This document shows positions 16,963-57,549 of a stretch of 64,000 nt of DNA, in pieces. Position 1 is the first letter of the stretch, and the number at the start of each line of letters is the position of its first letter. Made by a program: the position numbers and the translations under genes. Origin of the DNA: Lachnospiraceae bacterium (GTDB lineage: Bacteria; Bacillota; Clostridia; Lachnospirales; Lachnospiraceae); assembly GCA_017621815.1 (NCBI GenBank), contig JAGASK010000028.1:28140-92139 (forward strand). The letters are read 5' to 3'. Below the pieces are notes generated by a model. The model ran no database searches. It was not told where the DNA came from and saw only the letters and a list, made by a program, of their open reading frames with translations.

Positions 16963-16981
16963 TAATTCATGATAATAGAAA
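16963..16981 (-). repeat. Half copy of the dispersed palindromic element, minus orientation
   Basis: Read on the minus strand this 19-mer is TTTCTATTATCATGAATTA, identical to the right end of the element at 43249-43268. It lies in the leader of the minus-strand serine hydrolase, so it too points in the direction of transcription. Confidence 0.7.
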
Positions 16982-17160
16982 ATAGATTTGTAAATAATTT
17001 CGGCTTCATAATAGCATAGATGCATGAAAATAACAAGCAACGTTCCTGTATTGCCGGAAATTATAAAGTTTTAGGCATTTTTAATAATTATGTTTTAAAA
17101 ATTTTATTTTTATTGTATAATATATCTATGCTAAAAAATTGAAGTCATCAGGAGGAGGAA
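16982..17160 (+). promoter_or_regulatory. Divergent intergenic region with chemoreceptor promoter
   Basis: This AT-rich gap between divergent genes carries a TATAAT -10 at 17116-17121, 40 nt before the chemoreceptor start; the -35 position (TTTTAA, 17093-17098) is poor. AGGAGGAGG lies just before the ATG at 17161. I saw no operator or flagellar-type sigma motif. Confidence 0.4.
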
Positions 17161-19335
17161 ATGTTTAAATCAAAAGAAGATATAAATAAAAAGGAAAAAA
17201 AGAAAACAGCTAAGACCGAAATGAAAAAAACGGTTAAAACAGAAAAAAGGAAAACGGAAGAAGCTGAAAAGAAGAAAAAAGATAAGAAATCTGGCATTAT
17301 GCTTTTCAGTATACAGAATAAAATTGTTATATGCTTTTTGATTCCGATTCTGTTTATGATAATCATAGGAATATCTTCCTATCAGAAATCAGCTGAAGGT
17401 TTAAGCGAAAAGTTTCAGGAATCTACGATTCAGACGATTAACATGGCAAAGGAATACATTGATATGAGCTTTACCTTTATTGAATCGGAAGGACTGAAAT
17501 ATGCTTTTGACTCGGATGTAAATCAGTATGTACAGGGAACGCTGGAAGAACAGCCGCTGGAGAAGAAAAAAGTAATGGATAATATTAAGTCTGATATGTT
17601 ATCCTCACAGACTTCCAATCCTTTTATCAGCAATATACATATTGTTACCGCTGAAAATATCAACATGCTGACAACCGGTTCATCTCATAGTGCAAGCGGC
17701 GTTTTTAAGGAATATAAGGAGTCGGTTGCAGCATCCACGCGTGGAATTATAAACTGGGTTGATAATCATTCAATTTTGGATACTCCTCTGAAACTGAAAG
17801 ATTATGATTACATAATGGCTTATCAGATTCTGACAAAATCAAATAATGGATGTGTTGTTATTGATATTAAGGAATCAACTATTGAAGAATTTATCAGCGG
17901 GCTTGATTTGGGTGACGGCAGTATTGTAGGCTTTGTAACGGAAGGCGGCAGGGAGATTGTTGTCGAGCAGCTTGAAGAAGGACAGGAAAGTGTTCTTAAT
18001 GAAGATGAAAGTGTATTCTTCGGTCAGGAGTTCTTTTCACAGATAGATGCAGAACATATGCAGGGTTCCATGGAGGTTTCTTTTATGGAGCAGGAGTGTC
18101 TGTTTATTTACAGCAGAAGCGAAGATACCAATATTACTATTTGCGCGTTGGTGCCCATGAGTGTTGTTACAAGTCAGGCACAGGAAATTAAGAGCCTGAC
18201 CGTGTTTCTGATTGTATTGTCCTGCATAATTGCCCTGATAATAGGTGTTTTCGTTGTAGTGGGAATTCAGGCGAACATGAAGCGCATTTCCAGAAAATTT
18301 GAAGAAGTTGCCAAGGGGGATTTAACTGTAACAGTTAAAGCAAAAAGCAGAGATGAATTTCAGGGGCTTGCCGGTTCTGCCACACACATGATTACCAATA
18401 CCAAGAAGCTGGTTAATAAAGTCAGCAACGCAACAGAGCAGCTGGATGATTCCGCAAAAGGCGTTGAGAAGGTTTCAGGCATTATTAATGAATACTCCCA
18501 TGAAATCACCCAGGCTATCGATGAGATCAATGAAGGCATAGGAAGGCAGTCGGATCATGCCCAGGAGTGCGTAACAAGAACGGATGTGCTGTCCAATGAA
18601 ATACAGGAAGTCGGACAGGTAGTAGAAAAAGTAGAAGTGCTTGTAAATGAGAATGAGGACATGATCAGCCAGGGGATGGAGATCGTTCAGCTTTTGGGTG
18701 AACGTGCCCGGGAAACCACGGAGATTACTTCCAAAGTGGGAGAAAGTATTGAATCGCTTAAGAAGGAATCAGAAATCATTAATACTTTTATAGAAACGAT
18801 TACTTCCATTTCAAACCAAACCAATCTTCTCTCATTGAATGCGTCAATTGAGGCAGCAAGGGCAGGAGAAGCGGGAAGGGGATTTGCCGTTGTAGCGGAA
18901 GAAATACGAAAGCTCGCTGATGATTCGGCGAAAGCGGCCGGAGAAATCCGGAACAATGTATCTCATATTATGCTTCAGACTGAAAACAGCGTAAAGAGTG
19001 CAGGTCAGGCGCAGGAGATGGTTGCGCTGCAGGCAGAGTCAGTGGAGCAGGTAATCAGAGTGTTTGGAGATATGCGCAGGCAGATGAATTATCTTGTTAA
19101 AGGCCTGAATGAGATTGTTGTGAGCATGGAGAGGGCAGACGGCGAACGTAATGATACTGTCCAGGCTGTTCAGAATATTTCCAATATAATAGAAGAAACA
19201 GCTGACAGGGCGCAGAAAGTTAAGGATATTGCAGGAAAGCTTCTTGCCAATGTTGAAAATCTGAATACAACCGCAGATGTGCTTGGAGAAAATATGGAAG
19301 GTTTAAAATCTGAAATATCCGTATTTAAAATTTAA
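17161..19335 (+). CDS. Methyl-accepting chemotaxis protein with extracellular Cache sensor
   Basis: A 724-residue chemoreceptor. Residues 1-~42 are an extremely Lys/Glu-rich cytoplasmic leader. Helix 1 follows ([17 protein letters not shown]), then a large double-Cache-like extracellular sensor (~65-345), helix 2 ([21 protein letters not shown]), HAMP, and a signalling coiled coil. The conserved hairpin tip is present ([20 protein letters not shown], followed by [15 protein letters not shown]), so coupling to CheA/CheW is expected. No C-terminal CheR-binding pentapeptide is visible. It stands alone, between the serine hydrolase and the pectin importer, with its own terminator at 19403. A sugar or uronate ligand is possible from context but not shown. 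Confidence 0.93.
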
Positions 19336-19402
19336 AATGTATCTCATTTTGAACATTAGCAGTTTTGTATGCATTATTAATTGACAATTTTATAATTAAT
19401 TT

Positions 19403-19442
19403 AAAAAAGCAGCAATTCACCTAAATGATTTGCTGCTTTTTT
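19403..19442 (+). terminator. Intrinsic terminator after chemoreceptor
   Basis: AAAAAAGCAGCAA (19403-19415) pairs perfectly with TTGCTGCTTTTTT (19430-19442) across a 14-nt loop. Because both ends are A/T runs it can work on either strand. Confidence 0.85.
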
Positions 19443-19460
19443 GTATAAATTGGTGTGATT

Positions 19461-19474
19461 TGTAAACGCTTACA
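19461..19474 (+). promoter_or_regulatory. cre-like operator (CG centre) upstream of pectin importer
   Basis: TGTAAACGCTTACA matches the Gram-positive catabolite-response consensus TGWNANCGNTNWCA at every fixed position. It lies ~110 nt upstream of the importer -35. CcpA binding is inferred. Confidence 0.65.
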
Positions 19475-19571
19475 ATCTTGAAATAAAATTTGTGTTTAGT
19501 TAAAAAGGAAAAAGCAAAGATATATTTATGCGTTTTTTACAAAAAAAATCCGGGTTTGTAAAAGATTTTGC

Positions 19572-19627
19572 TTTACAAGATATATGCTGATGTGATATGA
19601 TTTATTCATGATGTGAAAGCACTTACA
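19572..19627 (+). promoter_or_regulatory. Importer promoter with overlapping LacI-type operator
   Basis: The promoter is TTTACA (19572-19577), an 18-nt spacer and TATGAT (19596-19601). Directly downstream, covering the expected start of transcription, is TGAAAGCACTTACA (19614-19627). This shares GCACTTACA with the operator in front of uxaB. It is placed for repression, most likely by the LacI-family protein encoded at 30631-31638. Confidence 0.65.
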
Positions 19628-19663
19628 TCAAAAGAAAATTAGCAAAAACATAAGGAGGTCTTT

Positions 19664-21283
19664 ATGAAAAAGAAACTAGTTTCCTTACTTTTGACAGCTG
19701 CTATGGTAGCTTCATTAGTAGGTTGCGGTGGAAGCTCTGATTCAGGTTCTTCCGCAGACACAACAGAAACAGAAACAACAACAGAAACTGCTGATACCAC
19801 AGAAGCTGCTGACACCACAGAAGCCGCTGATACAGCTGAGACAGCAGAAGCTGAGGTTGAAAAACCTGAAGAAATTACCATTATGGTTGATGGTACTGTC
19901 TTCACAAAGGAAAATGCACAGGATGAATTTATCGCTAAGTTAGAAGAATTACTTGGAATGAAGATCAATGTAATTCAGCCTGACCATGATGCTTACTATG
20001 ATGTAGTTGGACAGACAATTGCAAGCGGTGACTGGCCGGATGTTATGATTCTTGCAAGTACATATTATGCAGGATATGCATCAGAAGGTGTTCTGTGGGA
20101 TATGACAGATGTTTATGAAAGCTCAGAATTAAAGCAGAGACAGGATGCTTTCGGAAGCACAGGTGTTATTGATGGTGTCAGAATTGACGGACGTTTATAT
20201 GGTATGCCTGCTACACGTGGTAACGGATGTGTTACTTATGTAAAACAGAGATGGTTAGATAACTGCGGATTAACTGCTCCTACTAACTATGAAGAATACC
20301 TTGCAATGCTTGATGCATTCTCCAAGGGCGATCCTGACGGTGACGGCGTTGACGGAAATACTTATGGTGTATCCGCAGCAGGTTTCATCGGAAGTGAAGC
20401 TCCTTATATTAACTACCTGCCTGAATTTTATCAGGATGCAACCTCAGGTTTTGTTAAAACTGATGACGGTTCATGGATTGACGGATTTACACAGGATTCT
20501 ATGAAGGCTGCTCTTCAGAGACTGGCTGATGCTTATGCAGCAGGCTATATTGATCCCACAACTCTTACAAACGGTACAAAAGACTGCCGTGATAAGTTCT
20601 ACAGTGATGAGTTTGGTGTATTCACATACTGGGCTGGTACATGGGCAACCAACTTAAAGACAAACCTGGAAGCAAATGGTCTTGACGGAGAATTAGTAGC
20701 ACTTCCTCCTCTTGCAGAAGTTGGTGCATATCTTGACCGTGTTCCTCCTGTATGGGCTATTACATCTACCTGCGAAAATCCTGAAGGCGTATTCAAATAC
20801 TTTATCGAAGCTATGCAGGATGGCGGAGAAGTACAGTTCTTATGGACTTATGGTGTAGAAGGCATCCACTGGTCAACAGCTGCTGAAACATTATTTGAAG
20901 GAACTGACAAAGAAAAAGTATATGCTGAAGGCGAATTCCACGGATGTGAAAACCTTGAAACTGAAGGTACACAGTATACAAAGGCTCATATCGATCCGGC
21001 TCTTGCACTTGTAGACCTTGCAGATGACCCTGCAAAGACAAGCAGAGCAGATGAAAATAAAGCTTCAGCTGAACTCTTTAATGCAAATTCTGTAACAGCA
21101 GATTTAGCTCCTTCAACAGATGAAATGACTCAGTACAATGGTGATTTAACAACATTAAAGAACCAGTTGATCGCAAACGTTGTTATGGGTGAAATGACAG
21201 TTGATGATGCATATGCTAAATTTGAAGCAGATGGTGGTGCAGACTGGTCACAGAAGATTGTTGATTCTTTGAATGCTCAGTAA
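19664..21283 (+). CDS. ABC transporter solute-binding lipoprotein, LplA/YtcQ type (pectin oligosaccharide)
   Basis: A 539-residue lipoprotein: signal peptide with lipobox VGC (Cys ~23), then a Gly/Ser and Thr/Glu linker with repeated ADTTEA units (~residues 30-65), then a family 1 solute-binding fold (ITIMVDGTVFTKENAQDEF, IASGDWPDVMIL, DPDGDGVDGNTYGVSAAG). The calcium-like DPDGDGVDGN loop is typical of LplA/YtcQ-type proteins that pair with LplB/LplC permeases, as the next two genes do. Location at the head of a rhamnogalacturonan/pectin gene set suggests it binds pectic oligosaccharides; the exact ligand is inferred. AAGGAGG precedes the ATG. A hairpin after the gene probably limits read-through so that the binding protein is made in excess. 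Confidence 0.9.
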   Translation: MKKKLVSLLLTAAMVASLVGCGGSSDSGSSADTTETETTTETADTTEAADTTEAADTAETAEAEVEKPEEITIMVDGTVFTKENAQDEFIAKLEELLGMKINVIQPDHDAYYDVVGQTIASGDWPDVMILASTYYAGYASEGVLWDMTDVYESSELKQRQDAFGSTGVIDGVRIDGRLYGMPATRGNGCVTYVKQRWLDNCGLTAPTNYEEYLAMLDAFSKGDPDGDGVDGNTYGVSAAGFIGSEAPYINYLPEFYQDATSGFVKTDDGSWIDGFTQDSMKAALQRLADAYAAGYIDPTTLTNGTKDCRDKFYSDEFGVFTYWAGTWATNLKTNLEANGLDGELVALPPLAEVGAYLDRVPPVWAITSTCENPEGVFKYFIEAMQDGGEVQFLWTYGVEGIHWSTAAETLFEGTDKEKVYAEGEFHGCENLETEGTQYTKAHIDPALALVDLADDPAKTSRADENKASAELFNANSVTADLAPSTDEMTQYNGDLTTLKNQLIANVVMGEMTVDDAYAKFEADGGADWSQKIVDSLNAQ

Positions 21284-21323
21284 AGTAAATATATTTTCCT
21301 GATATTAAAAGGAATAATAATTG

Positions 21324-21357
21324 TGTGGAGCTATGGTAGTATTTCCATAGCTTCACA
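21324..21357 (+). terminator. Stem-loop between binding protein and permeases
   Basis: TGTGGAGCTATGG (21324-21336) pairs with CCATAGCTTCACA (21345-21357) with one mismatch. There is no T tract, so partial termination or 3'-end protection of the binding-protein mRNA is likelier than full termination. Confidence 0.6.
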
Positions 21358-21373
21358 TAATTCATAATTTGTA

Positions 21374-21420
21374 ACAATAGAAAGCCCGCAAAGAGTATTT
21401 TCTGTTGTTTATGACAATTT
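21374..21420 (+). repeat. Dispersed palindromic element, copy C
   Basis: It begins ACAATAGAAAG, continues with CCCGCAAAGAG and ends TTCTGTTGTTTATGACAA. The left half matches the copies at 24023 and 52181; the right half is diverged (TTTATGACAA in place of TCATGAATT). Confidence 0.65.
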
Positions 21421-21445
21421 AGTTTATTGAAGAGGAAGAATGGGT

Positions 21446-22414
21446 ATGAAAAAAAATAATAACCAATCAGTTACACCTGCCGCAAGCGGTAACAAGAGGT
21501 CATTGGGGGCTCGAATTTATAGGTACAGAGGGTTCTATTTGATGTTCCTTCCTGTATTTGTTTTTGCGATTATATTCTTTTATATGCCGATGCTTGGTGT
21601 AAGGTATGCTTTTACAAATTATAACGGAATTAAAGATCCGACATTTGTCGGGTTGGAAAATTTCCAAAAAATGTTTTCTATGCCGGGGTTTTGGTCCGCT
21701 TTTAAAAATACCCTGCAGATTAGTGTTACCGGTTTGATTACGAAAACGGGGTTTGCAGTTATTGTTTCTATTTTCTTAAACGAAATTGTAAATATTCATT
21801 TTAAAAAGGCTGTACAGACAATTATTTATCTGCCGCACTTTTTATCATGGGTAGTTACAGCCTCTCTGTTTTCATTGCTTTTAGCTCCTACAGGACAGGG
21901 GCTTGTTAACTCTTTCCTGGTTAATTTGGGAATTGTGGATTCTGGCAGCATGATATATTTCCTTGGAAGTTCCAAGTGGTGGAGAGGTACATACTATATT
22001 ATTAATCTTTGGAAAGAAACCGGTTGGCAGACAGTTATTTTTATGGCTACGCTGGCCGGAATGAATACAGAGCTTTATGAAGCAGCATCCATTGACGGTG
22101 CAGGACGCTGGGGCAAGATGCGTTATATAACATTCCCGGCACTTGCAAATACAATTCTGACAGTATTTATTCTGAACCTTGCAAAAGTTATGAATCTCTT
22201 TGAATCAGCTTTTGTATTGCAGAACGATGCTGTACTTGATGTTGCAAACGTTCTTGAAACTTATATCTACTATCAAACCTTTAACAGCGGAGCAATTCCG
22301 AACTATGGATATACGACCGCCGTTGGTTTATTTAAGTCTTTAGTAGGCTGTGTACTTGTACTTACATGTAACCAGTGGAGTAAGAAAGTACGTGAAGGCC
22401 GAGGAATTGTTTAG
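21446..22414 (+). CDS. ABC transporter permease, LplB/YteP type
   Basis: A 322-residue permease with about six membrane helices (first: YLMFLPVFVFAIIFFYMPML). The cytoplasmic EAA loop is clear: YEAASIDGAGRWGKMRYITF. LplB/YteP-type permeases pair with LplC/YtcP and carry pectic or related oligosaccharides in Bacillus. Start 21446 is chosen because GAGGAAG ends 7 nt before it; the in-frame ATG at 21440 would leave almost no spacing. The second permease follows 15 nt downstream. No cognate ATPase is in the window. Confidence 0.92.
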   Translation: MKKNNNQSVTPAASGNKRSLGARIYRYRGFYLMFLPVFVFAIIFFYMPMLGVRYAFTNYNGIKDPTFVGLENFQKMFSMPGFWSAFKNTLQISVTGLITKTGFAVIVSIFLNEIVNIHFKKAVQTIIYLPHFLSWVVTASLFSLLLAPTGQGLVNSFLVNLGIVDSGSMIYFLGSSKWWRGTYYIINLWKETGWQTVIFMATLAGMNTELYEAASIDGAGRWGKMRYITFPALANTILTVFILNLAKVMNLFESAFVLQNDAVLDVANVLETYIYYQTFNSGAIPNYGYTTAVGLFKSLVGCVLVLTCNQWSKKVREGRGIV

Positions 22415-22429
22415 GAGGGAGTAGCGGAT

Positions 22430-23275
22430 ATGAGAAGAAGAAAAAAGAAAATATCGGTCTTTTCAGTAGTGAACGGTATTATATTTATTGCTTTATGTCT
22501 GATTATTATCATTCCTATGTGGAAGGTATTGGTTGACTCATTTGATTTAAAAACGGCATATGGTATGAAATTATGGCCGGAGCAGTTCGGTCTTGCGGGT
22601 TACAAACTTGTATTCAGTAACCCTACATTGTACCGTCCTTTGCTGATCTCTGTTATTACAACAGTTTCAGGTACTCTGATTGCGTTAACATTATCAACGC
22701 TTGGTGCTTATGTACTTATTCAATGGGATATGCCCGGACGTACATTTTTTGCAAATATGCTGTTGTTTACCATGATTTTCAGCGGTGGTATGATTCCTAC
22801 ATATTTGGTTTTAAAGTCACTGCATTTGACGAATACATTATGGGTTGTAATTTTATTCCCTGCACTTAATGTATATAATCTGGTGCTTATGAGAAACTTC
22901 TTTGAAGGAATACCTGCCAGTTTGTTTGAATCGGCAACATTGGATGGATGTTCACCCATGCAGACATTTTTAAGAATTGTGCTTCCTATGTCAAAAGCTG
23001 CATTGGCATCTATCGGACTTATGTTTGCGGTTACTTATTGGAATGATTATACCCATTATAAGTTGTATATTACAAACTCTGATTTATATAACTTCCAGAT
23101 GAAACTGAGAGGTATGATACAGGGTAGTGATCTTCCTACAATGAGCGGTGGTATTACAGAAAATACAATTAAGAATGCAGCTATTATTGTAGTTATTGTT
23201 CCCTTTATGATTTTGTATCCCTTCTTACAGAAGTACTTTGTAAAGGGTGTTAATATCGGTGCTGTAAAGGAATAA
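22430..23275 (+). CDS. ABC transporter permease, LplC/YtcP type
   Basis: A 281-residue permease with a short basic N terminus (MRRRKKK) and a first helix (GIIFIALCLIIIIPMWKVLV). The EAA loop is FESATLDGCSPMQTFLRIVL and reads ESA...G rather than EAA...G, a common variant in this subfamily. The C terminus PFLQKYFVKGVNIGAVKE is the usual LplC/YtcP ending. AGGAGGGAG lies before the ATG. It should form the membrane channel together with the preceding permease. Confidence 0.93.
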   Translation: MRRRKKKISVFSVVNGIIFIALCLIIIIPMWKVLVDSFDLKTAYGMKLWPEQFGLAGYKLVFSNPTLYRPLLISVITTVSGTLIALTLSTLGAYVLIQWDMPGRTFFANMLLFTMIFSGGMIPTYLVLKSLHLTNTLWVVILFPALNVYNLVLMRNFFEGIPASLFESATLDGCSPMQTFLRIVLPMSKAALASIGLMFAVTYWNDYTHYKLYITNSDLYNFQMKLRGMIQGSDLPTMSGGITENTIKNAAIIVVIVPFMILYPFLQKYFVKGVNIGAVKE

Positions 23276-23294
23276 TGTATTTTGGAGGTACTCT

Positions 23295-23981
23295 ATGGCA
23301 ACAATTTATTGGGCCGGTGATTCCACTGTTCAGTATAATGATATTATCACATATCCCCAGACCGGAATCGGGCAGGTATTTCATCTGTTTGTTAAGCCGG
23401 ATGTAAAGATTGAAAATCATGCTAAAAATGGCAGAAGCACAAAAAGTTTTATAGATGAATCCAGAGTTCCTGCAATATATGACAAAATAACGAAAGGAGA
23501 TTTTCTTTTCATTCAATTTGGTCATAATGATGAGAAAATACAGGATCCTGAGAGGTATACAGAGCCTTATTCGGATTTTATGGTTAATCTTGAAAAGTTT
23601 GTAAATGTTGCCAGAAATAAAAAAGCATTCCCGGTACTTATTACACCCCTTGAAAGAAGATGTTTTAAAGAGGATGGGCATTTGGGAACGGGCGAGCATT
23701 CTGATTATGTGAAAGCCATGAAGCAGACAGCAGGTAATTTAAATGTGCCGCTTGTTGACTTATATAGTATGAGCCGTGAAAAGCTTGAAGAAGCCGGAGC
23801 GGAAAAAACAAAGGATTGGTATATGCATTTGCCTGCAAAGAAGTATGCTTCGCATCCTGAAGGGCTTACCGATAATACGCATTTGAAGTATGAAGGTGCT
23901 GTTGTTTATGCGGAATGTATTGCAAAAGGGCTTAAGGAATTAGGCGGTATCTACAGTGAGTTATTGGTAGAAGGATTTTAA
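23295..23981 (+). CDS. Rhamnogalacturonan acetylesterase-like SGNH hydrolase (CE12)
   Basis: A 228-residue SGNH-fold esterase. Block I is AGDSTVQY with the catalytic Ser ~10, block III is FGHNDEK, and the catalytic Asp/His pair is in DNTHLKYEG. This pattern and length match rhamnogalacturonan acetylesterases, which remove O-acetyl groups from galacturonate residues of RG-I. There is no signal peptide, so it should act in the cytoplasm on imported oligosaccharides. GGAGG lies ahead of the ATG, 19 nt after the permease gene, indicating co-transcription with the importer. A strong stem-loop and a repeat element follow. Confidence 0.87.
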   Translation: MATIYWAGDSTVQYNDIITYPQTGIGQVFHLFVKPDVKIENHAKNGRSTKSFIDESRVPAIYDKITKGDFLFIQFGHNDEKIQDPERYTEPYSDFMVNLEKFVNVARNKKAFPVLITPLERRCFKEDGHLGTGEHSDYVKAMKQTAGNLNVPLVDLYSMSREKLEEAGAEKTKDWYMHLPAKKYASHPEGLTDNTHLKYEGAVVYAECIAKGLKELGGIYSELLVEGF

Positions 23982-23985
23982 ATAG

Positions 23986-24013
23986 AATGGCTTAGGAAAT
24001 TTCCTAAGCCATT
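23986..24013 (+). terminator. Perfect stem-loop after the acetylesterase gene
   Basis: AATGGCTTAGGAA (23986-23998) and TTCCTAAGCCATT (24001-24013) form a 13-bp stem with a 2-nt loop. The following TGTTATAA is only weakly T-rich, so termination is probably partial. Confidence 0.6.
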
Positions 24014-24022
24014 TGTTATAAA

Positions 24023-24065
24023 ACAATAGAAAGTTCGCAAGGCGCGCTTTCTATTGTCATGAATT
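24023..24065 (+). repeat. Dispersed palindromic element, copy A (reference copy)
   Basis: ACAATAGAAAG (24023-24033) and CTTTCTATTGT (24047-24057) form a perfect 11-bp inverted repeat around TTCGCAAGGCGCG, followed by the conserved tail CATGAATT (24058-24065). It ends 20 nt before the GH43 start. Confidence 0.8.
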
Positions 24066-24085
24066 GAAAAAGGAGAGCTGAAAAA

Positions 24086-33379: not shown

Positions 33380-33389
33380 ATTGCATACA

Positions 33390-33430
33390 AAACAGAAGGT
33401 ACGCTCTGCGTACTTTCTGTTATCATGAAT
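33390..33430 (+). repeat. Dispersed palindromic element, copy E, between uxaB and uxaA
   Basis: AACAGAAGGTACGC pairs with GCGTACTTTCTGTT across a TCT loop, followed by ATCATGAAT (33422-33430). The tail contains an ATG (33425) that is in frame with uxaA, but the true uxaA start is downstream at 33452. Confidence 0.75.
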
Positions 33431-41510: not shown

Positions 41511-43219
41511 ATTTAACAATAGACGGAAGAGAAGTTTGTGTGCCGGAAGGCACAACCATTATGAAAGCTGCAGCTTCTGTAGGCATTATGATTCCTCATC
41601 TTTGCTATTTGGAAGGAATCAATGAAATCGGCGCCTGTAAAGTTTGTGTTGTGGAAATGCAGGGAAAGGTAAAGCTGATTACCTCCTGCAACAATCCGGT
41701 AGAAGAAGGCATGGTGCTTTTTACCAATTCCCCCAAGGTCCGCAGCGTAAGAAGAACGAATGTGGAACTGATTTTATCCCAGCATGACTGTAATTGCGCG
41801 ACCTGCGTGCGAAGCGGCAACTGCAATCTTCAGAAAATATCCAATGACCTTGGAATTGTTGATATTCCCTATGAAAAGGACATTCCTTTTGTTTCCTGGG
41901 ATAAGGATTTTCCTTTTATCAGGGACGCCGGCAAATGCATTAAATGCATGCGCTGTGTACAGGTTTGTGATAAGATTCAGGATTTACATATTTGGGATGT
42001 GCAGAATACCGGTTCCAGGACAACCGTGGATGTGGCGCAGAACAGATGTATTTCCGAATCAGACTGCAGTACCTGCGGACAGTGTGTGACCCATTGTCCT
42101 ACCGGTGCCCTTCGTGAAAGAAATGATGTGCCGGAAGTATTTAAGGTTTTAGCTGATCCTGAAAAAATTACGGTGGTGCAGGTTGCTCCCGCAGTAAGAA
42201 CCGCCTGGGCTGAAAACATGGATATACCGAAAGAAATGGCAACGGAAGGAAGACTGGCAGCTGCTTTGAAACAGGTTGGTTTTGACTATGTATTTGATAC
42301 ATGCTTTTCTGCGGACCTGACAATTATGGAGGAAGGTAACGAGCTTCTGCAAAGACTTTCGGATATTAAAGAATCGGGACTTCCCATGTTTACCTCCTGT
42401 TGTCCGGGCTGGGTGAAATTTATGAAATCGCAGTATCCTGAATATGCCGGACGTCTGTCTAGCGCCAAGTCACCCCAGCAGATGTTCGGAGCTGTAACAA
42501 AGACATATTTTGCAGAGCAAATCGGTGTTTCTCCCGATAAAATATGCTGTATCTCCATTATGCCGTGTATTGCAAAGAAAGGAGAAGCAGCATGGGAGGG
42601 TATGGATGTAACAGGAACCGGTCCCGATGTGGATATTGTTCTGACTACAAGAGAAATGGTAAGGCTGTTTAAGGCTGAACATATTATGCCAAAGCTTCTG
42701 AAGGAGGAGAAATTTGATTCTCCTCTTGGTGAAAATACCGGCGCCGGTGTTATTTTCGGTGCAACCGGCGGCGTTATGGAAGCAGCCCTTCGTACTGCCG
42801 TTTCTATTATTGAAGGCGGCAACTCCAATCCCGAAAAATTCAATGATGTGCGGGGAGAAGACGGAAGAAGAGAGGTAACCTATCATGTTAATGGTGTTCC
42901 TTTAAGAACCTGTACGGTAAGCGGGCTCGGAAATGCCAGAAAGATGATGGAGGATGTGATAAGCGGCAAATCCACTTATGATTTTGTTGAGGTGATGGCC
43001 TGCCCCGGCGGATGCGTGGGAGGCGGCGGACAGCCCATTTTAGACGGGGTTGAAATGGCTTATGTGAGAGCTCCCAAATTATATGAGCTGGATAAGAGAA
43101 GAGAAATCAGGTTTTCTCATGAAAATCCTGAAATTAAGAAACTTTATGAGGATTATCTGGAGAAGCCCTTGTCTGAAAAGGCACATCATCTGCTGCATTA
43201 TGAACATGCAGTGAAATAG
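41504..43219 (+). CDS. [FeFe] hydrogenase catalytic subunit, NADH-linked type
   Basis: A 571-residue enzyme, all cofactor sites present. The N-terminal [2Fe-2S] plant-type domain has Cys in PHLCYLEGINEIGACKVC and TSCN; a His-Cys3 cluster follows (HDCNCATCVRSGNC), then two [4Fe-4S] clusters (CIKCMRCVQVCDK and CSTCGQCVTHCP). The H-cluster motifs are FTSCCPGWVKF, MPCIAKKGEA and MACPGGCVGGGGQP. It makes or oxidises H2, coupled to the flavoprotein encoded upstream. No maturases HydEFG are in the window. Its TAG stop (43217-43219) lies inside a copy of the dispersed element (AATAGAAAG), so the element defines the C terminus. Confidence 0.95.
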   Translation: MVNLTIDGREVCVPEGTTIMKAAASVGIMIPHLCYLEGINEIGACKVCVVEMQGKVKLITSCNNPVEEGMVLFTNSPKVRSVRRTNVELILSQHDCNCATCVRSGNCNLQKISNDLGIVDIPYEKDIPFVSWDKDFPFIRDAGKCIKCMRCVQVCDKIQDLHIWDVQNTGSRTTVDVAQNRCISESDCSTCGQCVTHCPTGALRERNDVPEVFKVLADPEKITVVQVAPAVRTAWAENMDIPKEMATEGRLAAALKQVGFDYVFDTCFSADLTIMEEGNELLQRLSDIKESGLPMFTSCCPGWVKFMKSQYPEYAGRLSSAKSPQQMFGAVTKTYFAEQIGVSPDKICCISIMPCIAKKGEAAWEGMDVTGTGPDVDIVLTTREMVRLFKAEHIMPKLLKEEKFDSPLGENTGAGVIFGATGGVMEAALRTAVSIIEGGNSNPEKFNDVRGEDGRREVTYHVNGVPLRTCTVSGLGNARKMMEDVISGKSTYDFVEVMACPGGCVGGGGQPILDGVEMAYVRAPKLYELDKRREIRFSHENPEIKKLYEDYLEKPLSEKAHHLLHYEHAVK

Positions 43220-43267
43220 AAAGAGTGATTTCAAGTACGCTTTGCGAACTTTCTATTATCATGAATT
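43215..43267 (+). repeat. Dispersed palindromic element, copy F, overlapping the hydA stop
   Basis: AATAGAAAG (43215-43223) and CTTTCTATT (43249-43257) are inverted repeats, followed by ATCATGAATT. The inner part GTACGCTTTGCGAAC is the complement-like partner of the TTCGCAAAG seen in copies A and B. This copy is about 10 nt longer than the others. Confidence 0.75.
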
Positions 43268-49002: not shown

Positions 49003-49035
49003 TAGCCGCATGAATAGTCGAAAGGAGAAGGTACT

Positions 49036-50037: not shown

Positions 50038-50101
50038 TACAGGAAACAGCAGCAGTATATGAAATATAAGACTGCATTACCACATAAAAGGAGATACGGA
50101 A

Positions 50102-51298: not shown

Positions 51299-51317
51299 AA
51301 TATTTTTATAAGAGGTA

Positions 51318-51346
51318 TTGACAAACTATTATTCCATAGCTATAAT
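51318..51346 (+). promoter_or_regulatory. Consensus sigma-A promoter for yceD-rpmF
   Basis: TTGACA (51318-51323), exactly 17 nt, TATAAT (51341-51346): a perfect consensus promoter. A TTG codon at 51350 cannot start the gene because it sits beside the -10; translation starts at 51392. Confidence 0.9.
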
Positions 51347-51391
51347 GGTTTGAGTGTGCAGGGGTATTTCTGTGCACATTGGGAGTTTGTT

Positions 51392-51940
51392 ATGTTAATT
51401 AATCTGACTGATGTATTTTCATCTGAAGGAAAAGTAAAGAAAATAAATATTCCTTATGATCAGGATAGTTTTGCTTATAACAGTAATGTATATCCTGTGA
51501 GTAATAAGTCGGAGATTTCTGTTACTTTGACAAACATCGGAACGGGCAATGTGCTGGTGGAAGGAAATTTTGAAATTACACTTACTATTCCCTGCGACAG
51601 ATGTTTACAGAGTGTGAATGTTCCTCTTTCTGTGGCATTTACACATCAGGTGTTATCTCCTGAAAAAGAGAATGCCGCATCAGAAAAAACATCAAATGCC
51701 GAAACATTTGATGAAGAACAATGTTTTATATCCGGTTACGAACTGGATACAGACGCTCTCATAAACAATGAAATCTTAATTAATATGCCTGTTAAGGTTT
51801 TGTGCAGTGAGGATTGCAAAGGTATTTGTCCTGTCTGCGGTAAAAACTTAAATCAAGGGGATTGTGGCTGCGATACTTTCGTGCCGGACCCGAGAATGGC
51901 AGCAATTAAAGATATCTTTAACGCAAATAAGGAGGTGTAA
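51392..51940 (+). CDS. yceD: DUF177 / YceD family protein
   Basis: A 182-residue DUF177 protein. The N terminus MLINLTDVFSSEGKVKKINI, the central PCDRCLQSVNVPLSVAF and the C-terminal Cys cluster (CSEDCKGICPVCGKNLNQGD) are typical. It is the usual partner of rpmF; YceD is linked to 23S rRNA accumulation or ribosome assembly in other bacteria. GGGAG lies 7 nt before the ATG. The rpmF ribosome binding site (AAGGAGGTG) is inside its last codons, and only 2 nt separate the two genes. Confidence 0.92.
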   Translation: MLINLTDVFSSEGKVKKINIPYDQDSFAYNSNVYPVSNKSEISVTLTNIGTGNVLVEGNFEITLTIPCDRCLQSVNVPLSVAFTHQVLSPEKENAASEKTSNAETFDEEQCFISGYELDTDALINNEILINMPVKVLCSEDCKGICPVCGKNLNQGDCGCDTFVPDPRMAAIKDIFNANKEV

Positions 51941-51942
51941 CG

Positions 51943-52122
51943 ATGTCTATTTGTCCTAAGAATAAATCTTCCAAAGCCAGAAGAGATAAGAGAAGAGCAA
52001 ACTGGAAAATGAGTGCTCCTACATTAGTAAAGTGCAGCAAATGCGGCGCCCTGATGATGCCTCACAGAGTATGCAAGGCATGTGGTTCTTACAATAAGAA
52101 AGAAATCATCAGTGTTGACTAA
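51943..52122 (+). CDS. rpmF: 50S ribosomal protein L32
   Basis: A 59-residue protein, normal L32 length. It opens MSICPKNKSSKARRDKRRAN and carries the zinc-ribbon cysteines CSKCGALMMPHRVCKACG (CxxC and CxxC). It is a structural protein of the large ribosomal subunit. AAGGAGGTG lies 6 nt before the ATG. A strong terminator follows at 52139. Confidence 0.97.
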   Translation: MSICPKNKSSKARRDKRRANWKMSAPTLVKCSKCGALMMPHRVCKACGSYNKKEIISVD

Positions 52123-52138
52123 TTTATGTGATTTTAGT

Positions 52139-52174
52139 ATCAAGGGTTTCAGTTTTGAAACCCTTGATTTTTTT
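52139..52174 (+). terminator. Intrinsic terminator after rpmF
   Basis: ATCAAGGGTTTC (52139-52150) and GAAACCCTTGAT (52157-52168) form a perfect 12-bp stem with a 6-nt loop, followed by six more T (52169-52174). Confidence 0.92.
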
Positions 52175-52180
52175 AGTATG

Positions 52181-52220
52181 ACAATAGAAAGTTCGCAAAG
52201 GATGCCTTCTATTATATATG
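52181..52220 (+). repeat. Dispersed palindromic element, copy B
   Basis: ACAATAGAAAGTTCGCAAAG (52181-52200) is nearly identical to copy A; the right side reads TTCTATTATATATGAT and has lost the perfect tail. It lies between the rpmF terminator and the sigma-factor operon, and may overlap that operon's promoter. Confidence 0.7.
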
Positions 52221-52278
52221 ATAAAATGGAGTGGAATACACAGCATATGAAATTATTGGATATTGAGAGAGGGTAATT

Positions 52279-52782
52279 ATGAATGCACCGGAGAAGAAAT
52301 ATCATGTCGAGTTTGATAAGACCATTGAGAGATATTCCGATATGATATACAGGATTGCCATAACCATAACGGGAAATGAGGAAGATGCCAAAGATGCTTT
52401 TCAGGAAACCTTTTTAAGGCTTGTCAGAAGCCGGAATAAGATTGTGAGTGAGGAGCATTTGAAGGCATGGCTGATTCGGGTGGTTACAAATTGTGCAAAA
52501 ACTGTCGCTTCAAGTCCATGGAACAGAAAAACGCAAGGACTTTCAGGGGAAGAAAGTACAAGAGAAGCTGTATGCAGGACAGGAGAAAACAGTCTGCTTT
52601 TGGAATTGCAGAGTCTTCCGGAAAAATATTCCGTGGTTTTATATTTGTATTATTATGAAGGGTATTCTGTTAAAGAAATAGGAAGTCTGTTGGGGAAAAA
52701 CGAAAACAGCATTAAAACTTTATTAAGCAGAGGCAGAAGCCTTCTGCGGAAGGAATTGGAAGGAGGAGAAAGCCATGAATGA
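52279..52782 (+). CDS. ECF-type RNA polymerase sigma factor
   Basis: A 167-residue sigma-70-family factor. Region 2 is SDMIYRIAITITGNEEDAKD followed by AFQETFLRLVRSR and LKAWLIRVVTNCAK; region 4 includes LPEKYSVVLYLYYYEGYSVK and EIGSLLGKNENSIKTLLSRG. It lacks an extracytoplasmic part and acts in the cytoplasm. It overlaps the following gene by 8 nt, the classical sigma/anti-sigma arrangement. GAGGG precedes the ATG. Target promoters are unknown; autoregulation is likely but no matched promoter was identified. Confidence 0.93.
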   Translation: MNAPEKKYHVEFDKTIERYSDMIYRIAITITGNEEDAKDAFQETFLRLVRSRNKIVSEEHLKAWLIRVVTNCAKTVASSPWNRKTQGLSGEESTREAVCRTGENSLLLELQSLPEKYSVVLYLYYYEGYSVKEIGSLLGKNENSIKTLLSRGRSLLRKELEGGESHE

Positions 52783-53419
52783 ATGGGATAAAAAAGCTTT
52801 TGAAGATGCTTACAGCCAGGTTAAGGCACCGGAAACTTTGAAAGCAGATACTCTTTCCAAGATGCTTGAAGAAAATAATAAGGAAAAACCGGCAAGGCAG
52901 GTAAAGAATATATTTCGTTATGGGGCTTGGGCGGCGGCATTATGTGCAGCAGCGCTTTGTTTCATATTATTGCGCCCTTCCGGAATATCTTTTATAACAC
53001 CTATGGAAGATGACGTATATTATGATGAAGTGGAGCTGAAAGATGGGGTAATTCATTTTGTAAAAAACAGAGTTGCCATTTCCATAAGTCCTAATGCAGG
53101 AACGGTAACAATAGGCCAGGAAAACCAGCAGGAGACGGATGAAAATAAAGACGAGACTTCCAAAACCGCAGAGGAAAAAATAACGGAAAGCGGCGGCAGC
53201 ATCAGTTTCCGGGAAACAGATGCGCTTACTTTGCCGGAAATAGCAGAAGAAAACTGGTCTTATATTGGGGAACAGAAAATTTATGTGACAGTTTTAAAGG
53301 CAAATGAGGTCAGATATCAGGCTGTTTTTGAAAAAGATAAAACTGCATATGAAATGATAGGAATCAATGTGAGCCAAAAAGAGTTTATAGAAGAATTGTA
53401 TTTGCGAGTGAAAGAATAG
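52775..53419 (+). CDS. Putative membrane anti-sigma factor
   Basis: A 214-residue protein with a cytoplasmic N-terminal ~47 residues, one membrane helix (YGAWAAALCAAALCFILL) and an extracellular, acidic C-terminal region that includes a Glu/Thr/Lys linker. The size, topology and 8-nt overlap with the sigma gene indicate that it holds the sigma factor inactive. The zinc-finger HxxxCxxC motif of many anti-sigma factors is absent. The extracellular part may receive a signal, possibly from the lipoprotein encoded next. GGAGGAG precedes the ATG. The role is inferred from context. Confidence 0.7.
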   Translation: MNEWDKKAFEDAYSQVKAPETLKADTLSKMLEENNKEKPARQVKNIFRYGAWAAALCAAALCFILLRPSGISFITPMEDDVYYDEVELKDGVIHFVKNRVAISISPNAGTVTIGQENQQETDENKDETSKTAEEKITESGGSISFRETDALTLPEIAEENWSYIGEQKIYVTVLKANEVRYQAVFEKDKTAYEMIGINVSQKEFIEELYLRVKE

Positions 53420-53497
53420 TTTGATTGACAATGAAACTTTTTGAACTCCTTCAGAGTATTAATAATAGGAGTATATAAAACGGAGGAGGAATAAGAA

Positions 53498-55972
53498 GTG
53501 AGATTTAATAAGCTGATAAAAAGAGGATTTATTACAGTTTTTGCAGCAACGTTAGTTTTAACAGGCTGTGCTTCCGGCAAAGCTGATGAGAAAGCAGCCG
53601 GTACGGAAAATGTGGAACAAACGGCAGAAGAAAGTGATGATGCGGAGAAGGAAAATGAAAATAAAGATGAAGATAAAGGGACTTCTGATGCAGAATCAAG
53701 CGGCGGAGAGAATACTCTTGCAGAAGATTTAAAGAAAAAGTATGCGGGGGCAGGCGCCGGAGAATATGACGGTAATGTAATTAAAGTAAACAGGGATGAG
53801 TCTATTCAGCTTGAATTGGGATACAATCCATGGGATACAGATATCAGCCCTGCTGACAGCTTTATTTTTTATCAGGATGCAGAATTGAAATATCCGATAG
53901 AAGTAGGAAGCTATGAATACGATGCTTCGGCAGGTACCCTGACAATCGAACCGCCTTTCTATGGAGTTGCGGAAATGCATACTTCTTCAGATGTTGATTT
54001 AAGCCATTTAAACGGAAATTATCTGTCTGAAGATGAAGAAAACGGCTGGGGAACCTTATCACAGTATTATATGAAAACCTGTGTGGATTTGGAAACAGGT
54101 AAGGAACTGGCTAATCCGACAATAACGGTAATTAAAATTAATGCGGAAATTGCACAGGCGCCGCAGGTTGTTTTTGACCAGACTGAGGATGGATTTGCGC
54201 ATTTTTCGTGGAAACAGGTACCGGGTGCGGAAGGATATCTGCTGTTTAGAATCAATAAGGATGAAGAAGGTCTGTGGAGCTATGGGTATGCTGTTGCTGA
54301 TGTGAAAGGAACAGAGTGGAGCAGCGAGTCAGAAGCTTTTGTAAGTGATTATGATGATTCGATTCTTACTTTAAATTATAGATTTCAGCAGTATTATACC
54401 TCCGAAGATTTTGCTGCATGGGTTGAGGATAGCGACAGTTTTCTGAAAGAATACATGATAGAAGATGACTATGATGAGTATTACAGCGAATATTACGGCG
54501 TGCTTGCTTATAATGCAAATGGGTGCTCACCTGTCAGCAATTTGTTCAGTGCCAAGGATTTGTCCCATATGCTGCCTACGGAAAAGGCGAGCCACAGCAA
54601 TGAGGAGAGCTTTTTCGATATTGAGGGAATTATGGATCTTCCTGCGGTTATGAGTGTAACCATGTGTGATGGAAGTACGGCTCAGAAGGTTCTTACTTAT
54701 GATTTTGACAACGTTCAGATAGATAAGGATTTTAATTGTGTACGTATTAAATGTAAAGCGCTTCAAACGCCTTTTACGGTGGAACTTGCAGCATATGATG
54801 TAAACTGGGATACTCTTGATGCTGATCTTGCGGCGTTGAAGGAGCGTCAGGAAAAGCTGATAAATAAGGGCGGTAATGTTGCTCCGTCTTTAACGGTGGA
54901 AGATGAAACTCAGGAATCTTCAGGTGATGAACGGACTGAAGAAACGCCGGATGATACAAAGGAAGATGCGGAAAAACAGGAAGAAGCAGAAACTACTGGC
55001 AGAACTGAGGTTAAAATCACTGCTAATTCAGCTTTAAGCGAATATATTGCCATCAATATGCTGGAGACCAGGCAGGCTATTGATATTTCGGCCTTTCCGG
55101 AGGCTGCCGATACGGAAAAAGTAGTGGATGCTTTTTTTGAAGCCCAATATCAAAATCCCCTGATTTTAGGCATTCGGGGAGGAAGTATTGACCCGGAACA
55201 GAGAATTTTGTATGTGGAATATGATTTTGACAGGGAATTAACTGCAGGAAAGCAGGAAGCTATTCAGGAAAAAGTAAATGAGATTGTAGGCGAAATTATT
55301 GATGACGGCATGAGCGACGCAGAAAAGGAAATGGCGATTAATACATGGCTTTGTGAAAATGCCTGTTATGATGATTCAGCTCTTGAAAATGCAGAGAAAT
55401 ATTCTTTTACAATGGTAGATGAAGAATTTTATGATTCATTTACGGCTTACGGTATTTTGGTGGACGGAGTCGGTGTTTGTGCCAGCTATTCCGCAGCCTT
55501 TAAGCTGCTTGCGGATGCAGCCGGGCTGGAAAGCATTGTGGTAACGGGATACCTTGACGGCAGTGTGCCCCATGCATGGAATAAAGTAAAGGTTGATGAT
55601 AGCTGGTATATTGTAGATGCCACTAATAATGATAATGATGTGATTCATAATGCATTGTTTAATCTTTCGGATGCTGCTGCTTACGGAACTCTTGTGGAAA
55701 ATGACAGCTTTGTTATGAATGACAGCATTTATAATTATGCGGCTGATACAGATGAACTGGAGTATTACCATGCAACAGAACGTTATTTTGACAAGAATGA
55801 AATTGCATCTGAACTGGCAGAACTTCTTACAACAGACGGAAAAGCAGTTTTAAGGACAGACTATAATATTGATGACGAGGAGTTTTATGGTATTGCCCAA
55901 CAGGCGGCAGACGAAGCGCAGAAAAACATAAACGGATTTTACTGGATGGGAGTTATTCATCTGGAAGAATAG
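53498..55972 (+). CDS. Large lipoprotein with transglutaminase-like domain
   Basis: An 824-residue lipoprotein with a GTG start and lipobox LTGC (Cys ~25), a long Glu/Lys/Asp-rich linker, beta-rich middle segments including a fibronectin-like stretch around FAHFSWKQVPGAEGYLLFRI, a second acidic linker (~475-500), and a C-terminal transglutaminase-like fold. The Cys661/His692/Asp707 triad is visible in GVGVCASYSA, PHAWNKV and YIVDATNND, so cysteine-protease or amidase-type chemistry on cell-surface substrates is possible. It follows sigma and anti-sigma genes (78-nt gap, GGAGGAGG site), probably as the output or signal-linked product of that module. No specific substrate can be named. Confidence 0.85.
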   Translation: MRFNKLIKRGFITVFAATLVLTGCASGKADEKAAGTENVEQTAEESDDAEKENENKDEDKGTSDAESSGGENTLAEDLKKKYAGAGAGEYDGNVIKVNRDESIQLELGYNPWDTDISPADSFIFYQDAELKYPIEVGSYEYDASAGTLTIEPPFYGVAEMHTSSDVDLSHLNGNYLSEDEENGWGTLSQYYMKTCVDLETGKELANPTITVIKINAEIAQAPQVVFDQTEDGFAHFSWKQVPGAEGYLLFRINKDEEGLWSYGYAVADVKGTEWSSESEAFVSDYDDSILTLNYRFQQYYTSEDFAAWVEDSDSFLKEYMIEDDYDEYYSEYYGVLAYNANGCSPVSNLFSAKDLSHMLPTEKASHSNEESFFDIEGIMDLPAVMSVTMCDGSTAQKVLTYDFDNVQIDKDFNCVRIKCKALQTPFTVELAAYDVNWDTLDADLAALKERQEKLINKGGNVAPSLTVEDETQESSGDERTEETPDDTKEDAEKQEEAETTGRTEVKITANSALSEYIAINMLETRQAIDISAFPEAADTEKVVDAFFEAQYQNPLILGIRGGSIDPEQRILYVEYDFDRELTAGKQEAIQEKVNEIVGEIIDDGMSDAEKEMAINTWLCENACYDDSALENAEKYSFTMVDEEFYDSFTAYGILVDGVGVCASYSAAFKLLADAAGLESIVVTGYLDGSVPHAWNKVKVDDSWYIVDATNNDNDVIHNALFNLSDAAAYGTLVENDSFVMNDSIYNYAADTDELEYYHATERYFDKNEIASELAELLTTDGKAVLRTDYNIDDEEFYGIAQQAADEAQKNINGFYWMGVIHLEE

Positions 55973-56037
55973 CGGACAGGAGAAGGAATACAATAAAAAA
56001 GTAAGTGATTCGGTCAGGTGCATTTTGAAAATACGAA

Positions 56038-56079
56038 ACAATAGAAAGCACGCTTTGTGAACCTTCTGTTGTCATGAAT
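56038..56079 (+). repeat. Dispersed palindromic element, copy D
   Basis: ACAATAGAAAG (56038-56048), CACGCTTTGTGAAC, then TTCTGTTGT and the tail CATGAAT (56073-56079). With copy B at 52181 it brackets the sigma-factor module. Confidence 0.75.
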
Positions 56080-56085
56080 AATATG

Positions 56086-56120
56086 GGACATTCTGTCAGT
56101 GCAAGGCAGAATGTCCTATA
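56086..56120 (+). terminator. Intrinsic terminator after transglutaminase lipoprotein
   Basis: GGACATTCTG (56086-56095) pairs with CAGAATGTCC (56107-56116), followed by TATATTTTAT. Confidence 0.7.
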
Positions 56121-56154
56121 TTTTATGAATAAATTAAACCTTTAAAATAAATTC

Positions 56155-56183
56155 TTGATTTTTACAATGCAGTTTAGTATAGT
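56155..56183 (+). promoter_or_regulatory. plsX promoter
   Basis: TTGATT (56155-56160), 17 nt, TATAGT (56178-56183), 29 nt ahead of the plsX ATG. No FapR-type palindrome was recognised. Confidence 0.7.
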
Positions 56184-56211
56184 TAAATAGGTATATGGAT
56201 GGAGGTATTAT

Positions 56212-57225
56212 ATGGCAGAATTAGTTAAAGTTGCTGTAGATGCCATGGGCGGAGATAATGCTCCTGTGGAAATTGTTAAAGGCGCTGTGGAAGCAATTAA
56301 TGAGAGCTCTCATGTAAAAGTCTTTCTGGTTGGACAGGAAGATGTTGTAAATGCGGAACTTTCAAAATATACATATAATAAAGAACAGATGGAAGTGGTG
56401 AATGCCACAGAGATTATTGAAACAGCAGAGCCTCCCGTTATGGCTATCAGGAAGAAAAAAGATTCTTCTCTTGTGAAGGCTCTTTATCTTGTGAAGGATG
56501 GAACCTGCGATGCTTATGTTTCCGCAGGAAGTACCGGTGCAACTTTAGTCGGCGGCCAGGTGATTGTGGGAAGAATAAAAGGTGTGGAACGTCCGCCCCT
56601 TGCCCCGTTAATTCCTACAGAGAAGGGCTGTGCCCTGCTTATTGACTGCGGCGCTAATGTAGATGCAAGACCCTCGCATCTTGTTCAGTTTGCCAAGATG
56701 GGTTCCGTTTATATGGAAAATGTCATGAAGGTAAAAAATCCCAGGGTTGCTATTGTAAATATCGGTGCAGAGGAAGATAAGGGAAATGCCCTTGTAAAGG
56801 AAACTTATCCTTTGTTAAAGAATTGTCCCGACATTAATTTTACCGGAAATATAGAAGCAAGGGATATTCCTACAGGAAGTGCAGATGTTATTGTGTGTGA
56901 GGCTTTTGTGGGGAATGTTATTTTGAAAATGTATGAAGGTGTTGGCGGAACACTGATTAAAAAGGTAAAAGCGGGAATGATGACTTCGCTTCGCAGCAAA
57001 ATCGGAGCACTTTTAGTGAAGCCTGCTTTAAAGAATACGCTGAAAGCGTTTGACCTTGAGCAATACGGCGGTGCTCCCATGTTGGGATTAAACGGACTTG
57101 TTGTGAAAACTCACGGAAGTTCCAAAGCAGTGGAAATTAAGAATTCTATTCTGCAGTGTATTACATTTACAGAACAGAATATTAATGAAAAAATAAAAGA
57201 AAAAATTACTATGGAAGAAAGTTAA
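56212..57225 (+). CDS. plsX: Phosphate acyltransferase PlsX
   Basis: A 337-residue enzyme, normal PlsX length. It makes acyl phosphate from acyl-ACP for the first acylation of glycerol 3-phosphate. Motifs include [20 protein letters not shown] at the N terminus, [22 protein letters not shown] and [12 protein letters not shown], then [11 protein letters not shown] and [21 protein letters not shown] precedes the ATG. acpP follows 16 nt downstream, the standard plsX-acpP arrangement. Confidence 0.96.
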
Positions 57226-57241
57226 GAAAGGAATTGTAACA

Positions 57242-57472
57242 ATGGAATTTGAAAAATTAAAAAAAGTAATTGCAGACGTGTTAAATGTCGACCCTGAAGA
57301 AATCACAATGGAAACTACTTTTGTTGATGATTTGGGAGCGGATTCCTTGGATGTTTTTCAGATTATTATGGGATTAGAGGAAGAATTTGATATTGAAATC
57401 CCTGCTGAGGATGCAGAAAAAATTACCACAGTGGAAGAAGCAGTTAATTTAATTAAAAGTGCAATGAATTAA
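57242..57472 (+). CDS. acpP: Acyl carrier protein
   Basis: A 76-residue acidic four-helix protein. The phosphopantetheine attachment serine is in [20 protein letters not shown]. It carries acyl chains in fatty-acid synthesis and works with PlsX encoded immediately upstream. AAAGGAATTG precedes the ATG at normal spacing. Confidence 0.97.
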
Positions 57473-57505
57473 AACTACGCTTTGCGGAAACCTGATTGTC
57501 AAGAA

Positions 57506-57549
57506 CAACATCAGAAAGCAAGCTTTGTATTCTTTCCGGTGTCATGAAA
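57506..57549 (+). repeat. Diverged copy G of the dispersed element
   Basis: ACATCAGAAAG, CAAGCTTTG, TTCTTTCCGGTGTCATGAAA: the same order as other copies (AGAAAG, central CTTTG, CTTTC, TGTCATGAA) but with many changes. A fragment just before it (TACGCTTTGCGGAA, 57476-57489) looks like a second partial copy. Confidence 0.5.

Follow-up and report, generated by a model that had tools for sequence, protein, structure and literature searches.

A probable REP-like palindrome family of Clostridia that tends to face terminator-like stem-loops

Introduction

Repetitive extragenic palindromes (REPs) are palindromes of 20-40 nucleotides (nt) with an unpaired tag at one end, and they lie mostly in intergenic gaps, between tandem or convergent genes, with some of them arranged in tandem (excerpts of PMC3733652). 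They often exceed 100 copies per genome (excerpt of PMC2817692), and the stem of the Escherichia coli REP has conserved mismatches (excerpt of PMC8266576). Proteobacteria are the main hosts of REPs tagged GTAG or CGTC, and those with GTAG are linked to RAYT enzymes (excerpts of PMC3733652). Here, we describe a tagged hairpin repeat in a 64,000-nt stretch of DNA (the window) from Lachnospiraceae bacterium (assembly GCA_017621815.1, contig JAGASK010000028.1, positions 28,140 to 92,139 of the forward strand), in which a first-pass annotation had noticed a short palindromic element in about eight intergenic gaps. We lean towards reading it as a mobile, non-autonomous palindrome of the REP kind that occurs in Clostridia, for the most part in Lachnospiraceae; its 40-nt unit would insert 3' of RTT beside hairpins and on one strand.

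Like the GTAG and CGTC REPs of the RAYT/TnpA-REP kind, the repeat is a short tagged palindrome with many copies, mostly intergenic and some in tandem, and with a mismatch in the stem. The tag is different, CATG(A) instead of GTAG or CGTC, and the hosts are Clostridia, whereas PMC3733652 contains neither "firmicutes" nor "clostridi". Insertion here faces terminators, and the word "terminator" does not appear in that paper. There was also no Y1 or RAYT gene beside the 40-nt repeat in the loci checked. Elements of the IS200/IS605 group insert 3' of a short motif, carry that motif again at the element end and have a hairpin near a short foot, which is where our repeat would resemble them. In contrast to palindromes derived from them, however, the repeat consists of one 40-nt hairpin and has no interior framed by two ends, and the loci checked have no TnpA gene beside the copies. 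SPRITE, RUP and BOX are small hairpin repeats of pneumococci that are enriched between convergent genes, and SPRITE resembles a terminator (excerpts of PMC3049150). By their descriptions, all three are set apart from the 40-nt repeat; SPRITE ends in a U-rich tract, whereas our repeat adjoins an existing stem-loop and ends in CATG. Lastly, group IIC introns share the target type of the repeat, intrinsic terminator motifs (excerpts of PMC4424553), and the repeat differs from them in its length of 40 nt and in having no ribozyme, reverse transcriptase (RT) or intron ends.

This is a REP-like family in which the tag is different, the unit has been mapped to 40 nt and terminator-like stem-loops are preferred in one direction, and it is present in many Lachnospiraceae without the usual enzyme. 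The family makes it possible to test what moves tagged palindromes without RAYT, and why sites made of a hairpin and a T-tract draw unrelated mobile elements.

Results

Copy number in the source genome

The source genome (G000) has 3,496,605 bases and is 91.55% complete. The tail half of the repeat, CTTTCTATTRTCATGAATT, matched it at 134 places with at most 3 mismatches, compared to 4 for the pattern read backwards. The left half gave 132 matches and 2 backwards, and some of the 132 are the complement of a right arm. Copies were scored with a 42-nt frame, AYAATAGAAAG-N13-CTTTCTATTRT-CATGAAT, in 415,508 bases of G000 stretches around matched sites, which take in part of the 134 places. The scoring yielded 130 copies, 99 of them full-length, and reversed stretches yielded 1 and 0; because the stretches were picked for holding copies, copy densities in them are not genome averages. 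The repeat is genome-wide and not a product of chance, and the dispersed repeat with further copies in the genome that the first-pass annotation had proposed was borne out. The eight window copies that it named are all present, within about 10 nt of where it had placed them, as variants of AYAATAGAAAG, CTTTCTATTRT and CATGAAT.

The 40-nt unit and its empty sites

A clean empty site was found by comparing locus L404 of genome G062 with the filled locus L366 of genome G061, which differ by exactly 40 nt. The flanks are identical at 188/199 and 182/203 positions, and at 49/50 and 42/50 positions beside the joint. There was no target duplication beyond an ambiguous AA. The site fits insertion 3' of a fixed short motif, with an AA/RTT ambiguity. 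A second, less exact empty site (L346 compared to L405) differs by 43 nt with an unchanged right junction, which on the target strand follows ..TTTTATT. In both readable cases, the empty site (L404 or L405) already has the AAT found behind CATG, which makes this AAT target sequence, not element. Thus, of the shared arms and CATGAAT tail described earlier, the arms and CATG stand and the final AAT is removed. In two further pairs (L356/L406 and L360/L407), the copy was absent but the differences were wider than the element.

Tandem copies gave the same length. Among the scored G000 copies, 14 spacings were shorter than 110 nt; ten measured 40 nt, one 39 nt and one 42 nt, these being same-strand and the only ones below 60 nt, and the remaining two (86 and 89 nt) were opposite-strand pairs. 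The unit is 40 nt, a length on which the clean empty site agrees with the repeat period in most tandem arrays.

Relatives from the same genus were also compared. The full copy at 24023..24064 (plus strand) is missing from the orthologous place in G016, G007 and G024, all three of which keep the terminator-like stem-loop that lies on the left-arm side of this copy in the window (23986..24013, plus strand). Another full copy, at 33389..33430 (plus strand) in an operon gap, is missing from the orthologous gap of the aligned relatives G016, G007, G024 and G025. The other window gaps were too diverged in genus relatives, or outside coverage, for placing a junction.

In L348, L352, L354, L358 and L364 of G061 and in L345, L347 and L359 of G062, the hairpin lies inside a multi-copy repeat of about 230 bp that has inverted ends of its own. 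A version without the hairpin is found in L372 near position 317, and it is ambiguous as an empty site.

Copies tend to face stem-loops with their tails

Stem-loops were looked for in the 60 nt on each side of a copy, with the orientation of the copy set by its tail. A strong stem had 6-12 pairs and ended within 25 nt of the copy, those on the tail side being read on the strand opposite to the copy, and a T-rich spacer was scored separately. Random intergenic points in the same stretches served as the control, and counts were compared by Fisher tests. On the tail side, a strong stem was present at 54 of the 99 full G000 copies, 32 of which had a T-rich spacer as well; on the left-arm side, the numbers were 14 and 3. 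The control points gave 164/1272 and 45/1272, and those in convergent gaps 54/234 and 13/234. Excluding copies with a neighbouring copy within 110 nt left 78, with 41 and 25 on the tail side and 10 and 1 on the left. The distance from stem to copy was 0-11 nt for 53 of the 54 tail-side stems. Strong stems at the tail were seen at 41/62 copies where the tail-side gene ends and at 9/29 where it starts.

The test was repeated with 78 distinct full copies from named GTDB contigs. The tail side had 39 strong stems and 24 T-rich spacers and the left side 9 and 0, with 187 and 44 of 1648 for the control. Among the lower-scoring copies (n=31), a strong stem was seen on the tail side of 10 and on the left side of 2. 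The real bias of the repeat is its tail towards a stem-loop, often a terminator; the separate stem-loops that had been noticed near the window copies are real, and they are directional.

Gene context

Gene context was taken from a simple caller of open reading frames (ORFs) of at least 80 amino acids, not from a gene finder. By this measure, 92 of the 99 full copies were intergenic, and some copies overlapped gene ends. The earlier reading was that every copy points with the transcription of its neighbours, and a bias for intergenic, co-directional positions had been set beforehand as a test. The intergenic part held and the co-directional part did not, as the 5' neighbour of the 92 intergenic copies was co-directed in 44 cases and anti-directed in 48. 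Co-directionality with genes was therefore rejected. Two of the window copies, those named 21374 and 52181, already depart from the earlier reading, since both are minus-strand copies flanked by plus-strand ORFs. Of the intergenic full copies, 91 had genes on both sides (both opposite to the copy in 38, convergent in 24, both parallel in 20, divergent in 9) and one further copy had a neighbour on one side only. In tandem gaps, 38 copies ran against the genes versus 20 with them (p=0.025).

At some gene ends, a copy supplies the last codons or the stop, as in L021 (C14:92316) and L349; an example is the ...LSIVMNK that ends a histidine-kinase-like ORF.

The hairpin and its covariation

Covariation in the stem was scored against shuffled alignments. 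It was 0.148 in 29 copies, compared to 0.113 +- 0.008 after shuffling, and 0.264 in 33 hand-picked copies from G000 and other genomes, compared to 0.120 +- 0.010, a value that none of 500 shuffles reached. Within the 33 copies, pair 10-26 was A-T in 21 and T-A in 11, and pair 11-25 took all four Watson-Crick forms; the count of further pair types was no higher than in shuffles (193/500). Position 13-23 was unpaired in 33/33 copies and in 83/93 from G000. Folded as single-stranded DNA, the hairpin gave z = -5.9. Only one end carries the foot, CATG, which is conserved about as well as the arms.

We conclude from the strong covariation across genomes that the hairpin matters. The compensating stem changes reported before are real, and of the suggestion that the stem is kept as RNA or DNA structure, the structure is supported with neither molecule singled out. 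Single stem changes in G000 were also counted on the element strand. There were 86 G-T versus 63 A-C (p=0.07), or 80 versus 54 (p=0.03) without the subfamily-marking pair (pair 2). This weak wobble excess leaves some room for an RNA role.

In C44:257608, C16:52162, C17:181630 and L367, the inner loop is inverted relative to the foot and arms (CGCAAAGCG-like, not CGCTTTGCG).

Half copies

The first-pass annotation had placed a half copy at 16963, and it is a genuine member of a class of right-half-only copies. In a gapped alignment, 26/106 right ends had no left arm and 6/93 left ends had no right arm (p=0.0005; 0.0003-0.0005). The bias weakened to 30 versus 15 (p=0.04) at a stricter threshold and to 24 versus 12 (p=0.10) with a plain arm match. 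The excess of right halves may point to insertion beginning at the foot, a reading that is not secure. Mere decay was considered as the origin of these copies, and the outcome varied with the test over the p values given.

Distribution across genomes

Model matches were counted in 37 genomes of the genus, with scoring limited to the 150 best candidates of each; a single site may count on both strands, so these are not copy numbers. G000 had 134, G030 had 37 and G002 had 15, and the other 34 genomes had 0-3. In GTDB r220, at least 106 stretches hold the exact 18-mer. Among the matches listed, the titled hits with a left arm were from Clostridia or Bacillota, mainly Lachnospiraceae. Hits to the 18-mer in archaea, Chthoniobacter, Desulforamulus, Desulfotomaculum, Erysipelotrichaceae and Mucilaginibacter are probably due to chance because they have no left arm. 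The presence of the repeat is lineage-specific, and its insertion sites could serve as strain markers.

Viral contigs had no exact match to the 37-base core pattern, and plasmids had no match at E 0.1. Matches were found in 27 phage records; the 20 of them that were listed are all from human fecal samples. Five "Bacteriophage sp." records that were fetched (MT836618.1, MT835924.1, MT835743.1, MT836133.1 and MT836187.1; L454-L458) appear by their ORFs, judged by eye, to be bacterial chromosome. The repeat in these five is of a subfamily in which a stem pair has changed from A-T to T-A, a compensating change.

Search for a named element and for reverse transcriptases

No Rfam match at gathering score was found in the window or in seven G061 and G062 loci. 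Twenty other G000 loci with copies gave four Rfam hits (three tRNA and one 6S), none of which is the element. Group II introns had no match in the window or in these 20 loci, and the unit is 40 nt. No description of the 40-nt repeat was found in the open-access literature by literal strings or by topic, in titles, abstract starts and passages. The earlier remark that this is not a recognised named element is consistent with both searches.

RVT_1 matches were present in 16/26 genomes, 9/13 with the repeat and 7/13 genus genomes without a model match; RT genes and the repeat are thus independent over these 26 genomes, and RT was set aside as a partner. Of 36 RT matches, the 30 with a locus had no full copy, and the one hit listed was without a left arm. 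In G000, a group II intron RT is located on contig C8. Judged by eye, the group II intron of G064 comes after a stem-loop and T-tract, and that of G062 does so less clearly.

Two more RT genes of G000, on C52 (L442) and C41 (L452), lie beside matches to the Rfam RNAs RT-5 and RT-14. At about 1840-1880 of L297, by a copy on C25, the minus strand reads GGGTGAAAGTCCC, as in introns such as those of G062 and G064, with no Rfam match there.

Discussion

The tagged palindrome family is probably REP-like in both build and mechanism. On the target strand the unit would be RTT^[CATG-AYAATAGAAAG-N13-CTTTCTATTRT-T]^: it has a short foot on its 5' side, continues as a hairpin whose internal mismatch is nearly constant, and reads RTT again at its end. 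We propose that it inserts 3' of RTT, preferably in a T-rich stretch just past a stem-loop and with the foot facing that stem-loop, and that insertion leaves no obvious target duplication. Insertion beside its own hairpin could then give the 40-nt tandem arrays. The hairpin would be recognised as single-stranded DNA by an enzyme acting in trans. In REP and IS200/IS605 DNA, one short motif precedes the cleavage site at either end, and insertion causes no duplication. An HUH-type nuclease would be our first guess for the mobilising enzyme because same-motif cleavage at both ends and duplication-free insertion resemble this handling; no candidate enzyme was found.

Several observations weigh against a REP-like mobile palindrome. 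Only one empty site is fully clean, and about 45 of the 99 full copies had no strong tail-side stem by our test. The excess of right-half-only copies is not foreseen by simple cut-and-paste, and the G-T excess is a weak sign of a protected fold of the element strand and not of the favoured target strand. The remaining points concern the enzyme. A Y1 transposase had no match in G000 (91.55% complete as it is), G030 or G002, and none in 11/30 GTDB genomes holding the 18-mer. There were 74 Y1 matches over the 37 genus and 30 GTDB genomes, and none of the 42 with a locus holds a convincing copy, only weak hits of chance level. One Lachnospiraceae contig (L198) has a 59-amino-acid Y1-like fragment (793-969) about 1.5 kb from a full copy (2476), which is a weak association. 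Over these genomes and loci, the Y1 transposase was rejected as a partner, and the idea of a related transposase with repeat ends failed for Y1. Also, the 22 proteins encoded between the 14 close copy pairs of G000 appeared housekeeping-like by eye, with no obvious recombinase; no family search was made.

Another explanation, which we hold to be rather unlikely, is that the repeat is the counterpart of a short interspersed element (SINE-like) or the substrate of an undescribed transposase. The 40 nt would be copied from the foot onto the 3' end of terminator T-tracts, many copies would be partial, and spread would need no Y1. Retroposition, which we consider unlikely, would use an RT such as that of a group IIC intron: a short RNA with CAUG(AAU) at its end would be copied by target priming onto the 3'-OH of a terminator T-tract, and early stops would leave tail halves. 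Group IIC introns insert at intrinsic terminators (excerpts of PMC4424553), a T-rich stretch comes after a stem-loop in one published substrate for IIC targeting (excerpts of PMC7161350), and the introns of G064 and, less clearly, G062 fit this layout. The excess of right-only copies would follow from early stops, G000 has its group II intron RT on C8, and the G-T excess on the element strand runs in the direction expected of an RNA template. However, 4/13 repeat-holding genomes (G065, G067, G068 and G072) had no RVT_1 match while 7/13 genus genomes without a model match did, the 30 RT loci had no full copy, the truncation bias weakens with the other two tests, and the element has no intron ends.

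The short inverted arms, the lack of an ORF, the mostly intergenic position and the many copies would also suit a miniature inverted-repeat transposable element of a hairpin-preferring DDE transposon, with the arms ACAATAGAAAG as terminal inverted repeats, and the larger repeat of about 230 bp in G061 and G062 has inverted ends of its own and contains the element. We consider this origin quite unlikely, since the unit is asymmetric, with a foot at one end that is conserved about like the arms, since the clean empty site shows no duplication beyond the ambiguous AA, and since the viral contigs and plasmids searched gave no match. A host RNA element that selection maintains at each site, such as an mRNA stabiliser, an attenuator or a component of a double terminator, seems improbable to us. 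The stable hairpin (folded as DNA), its covariation, its place beside stem-loops and the weak G-T excess agree with it, and REPs elsewhere are discussed as RNA elements (excerpts of PMC3733652), but copies are oriented both ways to genes, some of them run into gene ends, and alignable orthologous gaps in relatives lack copies. It is very improbable that the repeat spreads passively, without an enzyme dedicated to it, as hairpins recombine and templates are switched among them. Tandem arrays, truncated copies and the inverted loops at C44:257608 and C16:52162 could arise in this way; passive spread is at odds with the exact insertion of 40 nt into an unrelated site and with the single orientation to stem-loops that is preferred across many genomes.

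The other copies in the window

The right-half-only copy lies at 16965..16982 on the minus strand (C16:45104-45121) and has the right arm and CATGAAT without a left arm. The full copy at 21367..21408 (C16:49506, score 32) is on the minus strand, opposite to the earlier reading, and faces with its tail a stem-loop at 21322..21356 (plus strand, approximate bounds), which has a stem score of 18 and is 10 nt from the copy. This copy is preceded by an apparent vestige of another unit (ATTGTCATAA). At 43213..43266 (plus strand), a copy has about 10 extra nt in the left arm, which is shifted to about 43213-43222. The full copy at 52174..52215 (C16:80313, score 32), minus strand by its tail, adjoins the T-tract of a terminator-like stem-loop that its tail faces (52139..52168, plus strand). 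The full copy at 56038..56079 (plus strand) has a stem-loop beside its tail at 56081..56121 (plus strand, approximate bounds), and the diverged copy at 57507..57549 (plus strand) falls below the score used in the counts. Elsewhere in the genome, on C21, a 6S RNA gene (L294 1496-1688, minus strand) has a copy at a distance of about 110 nt.

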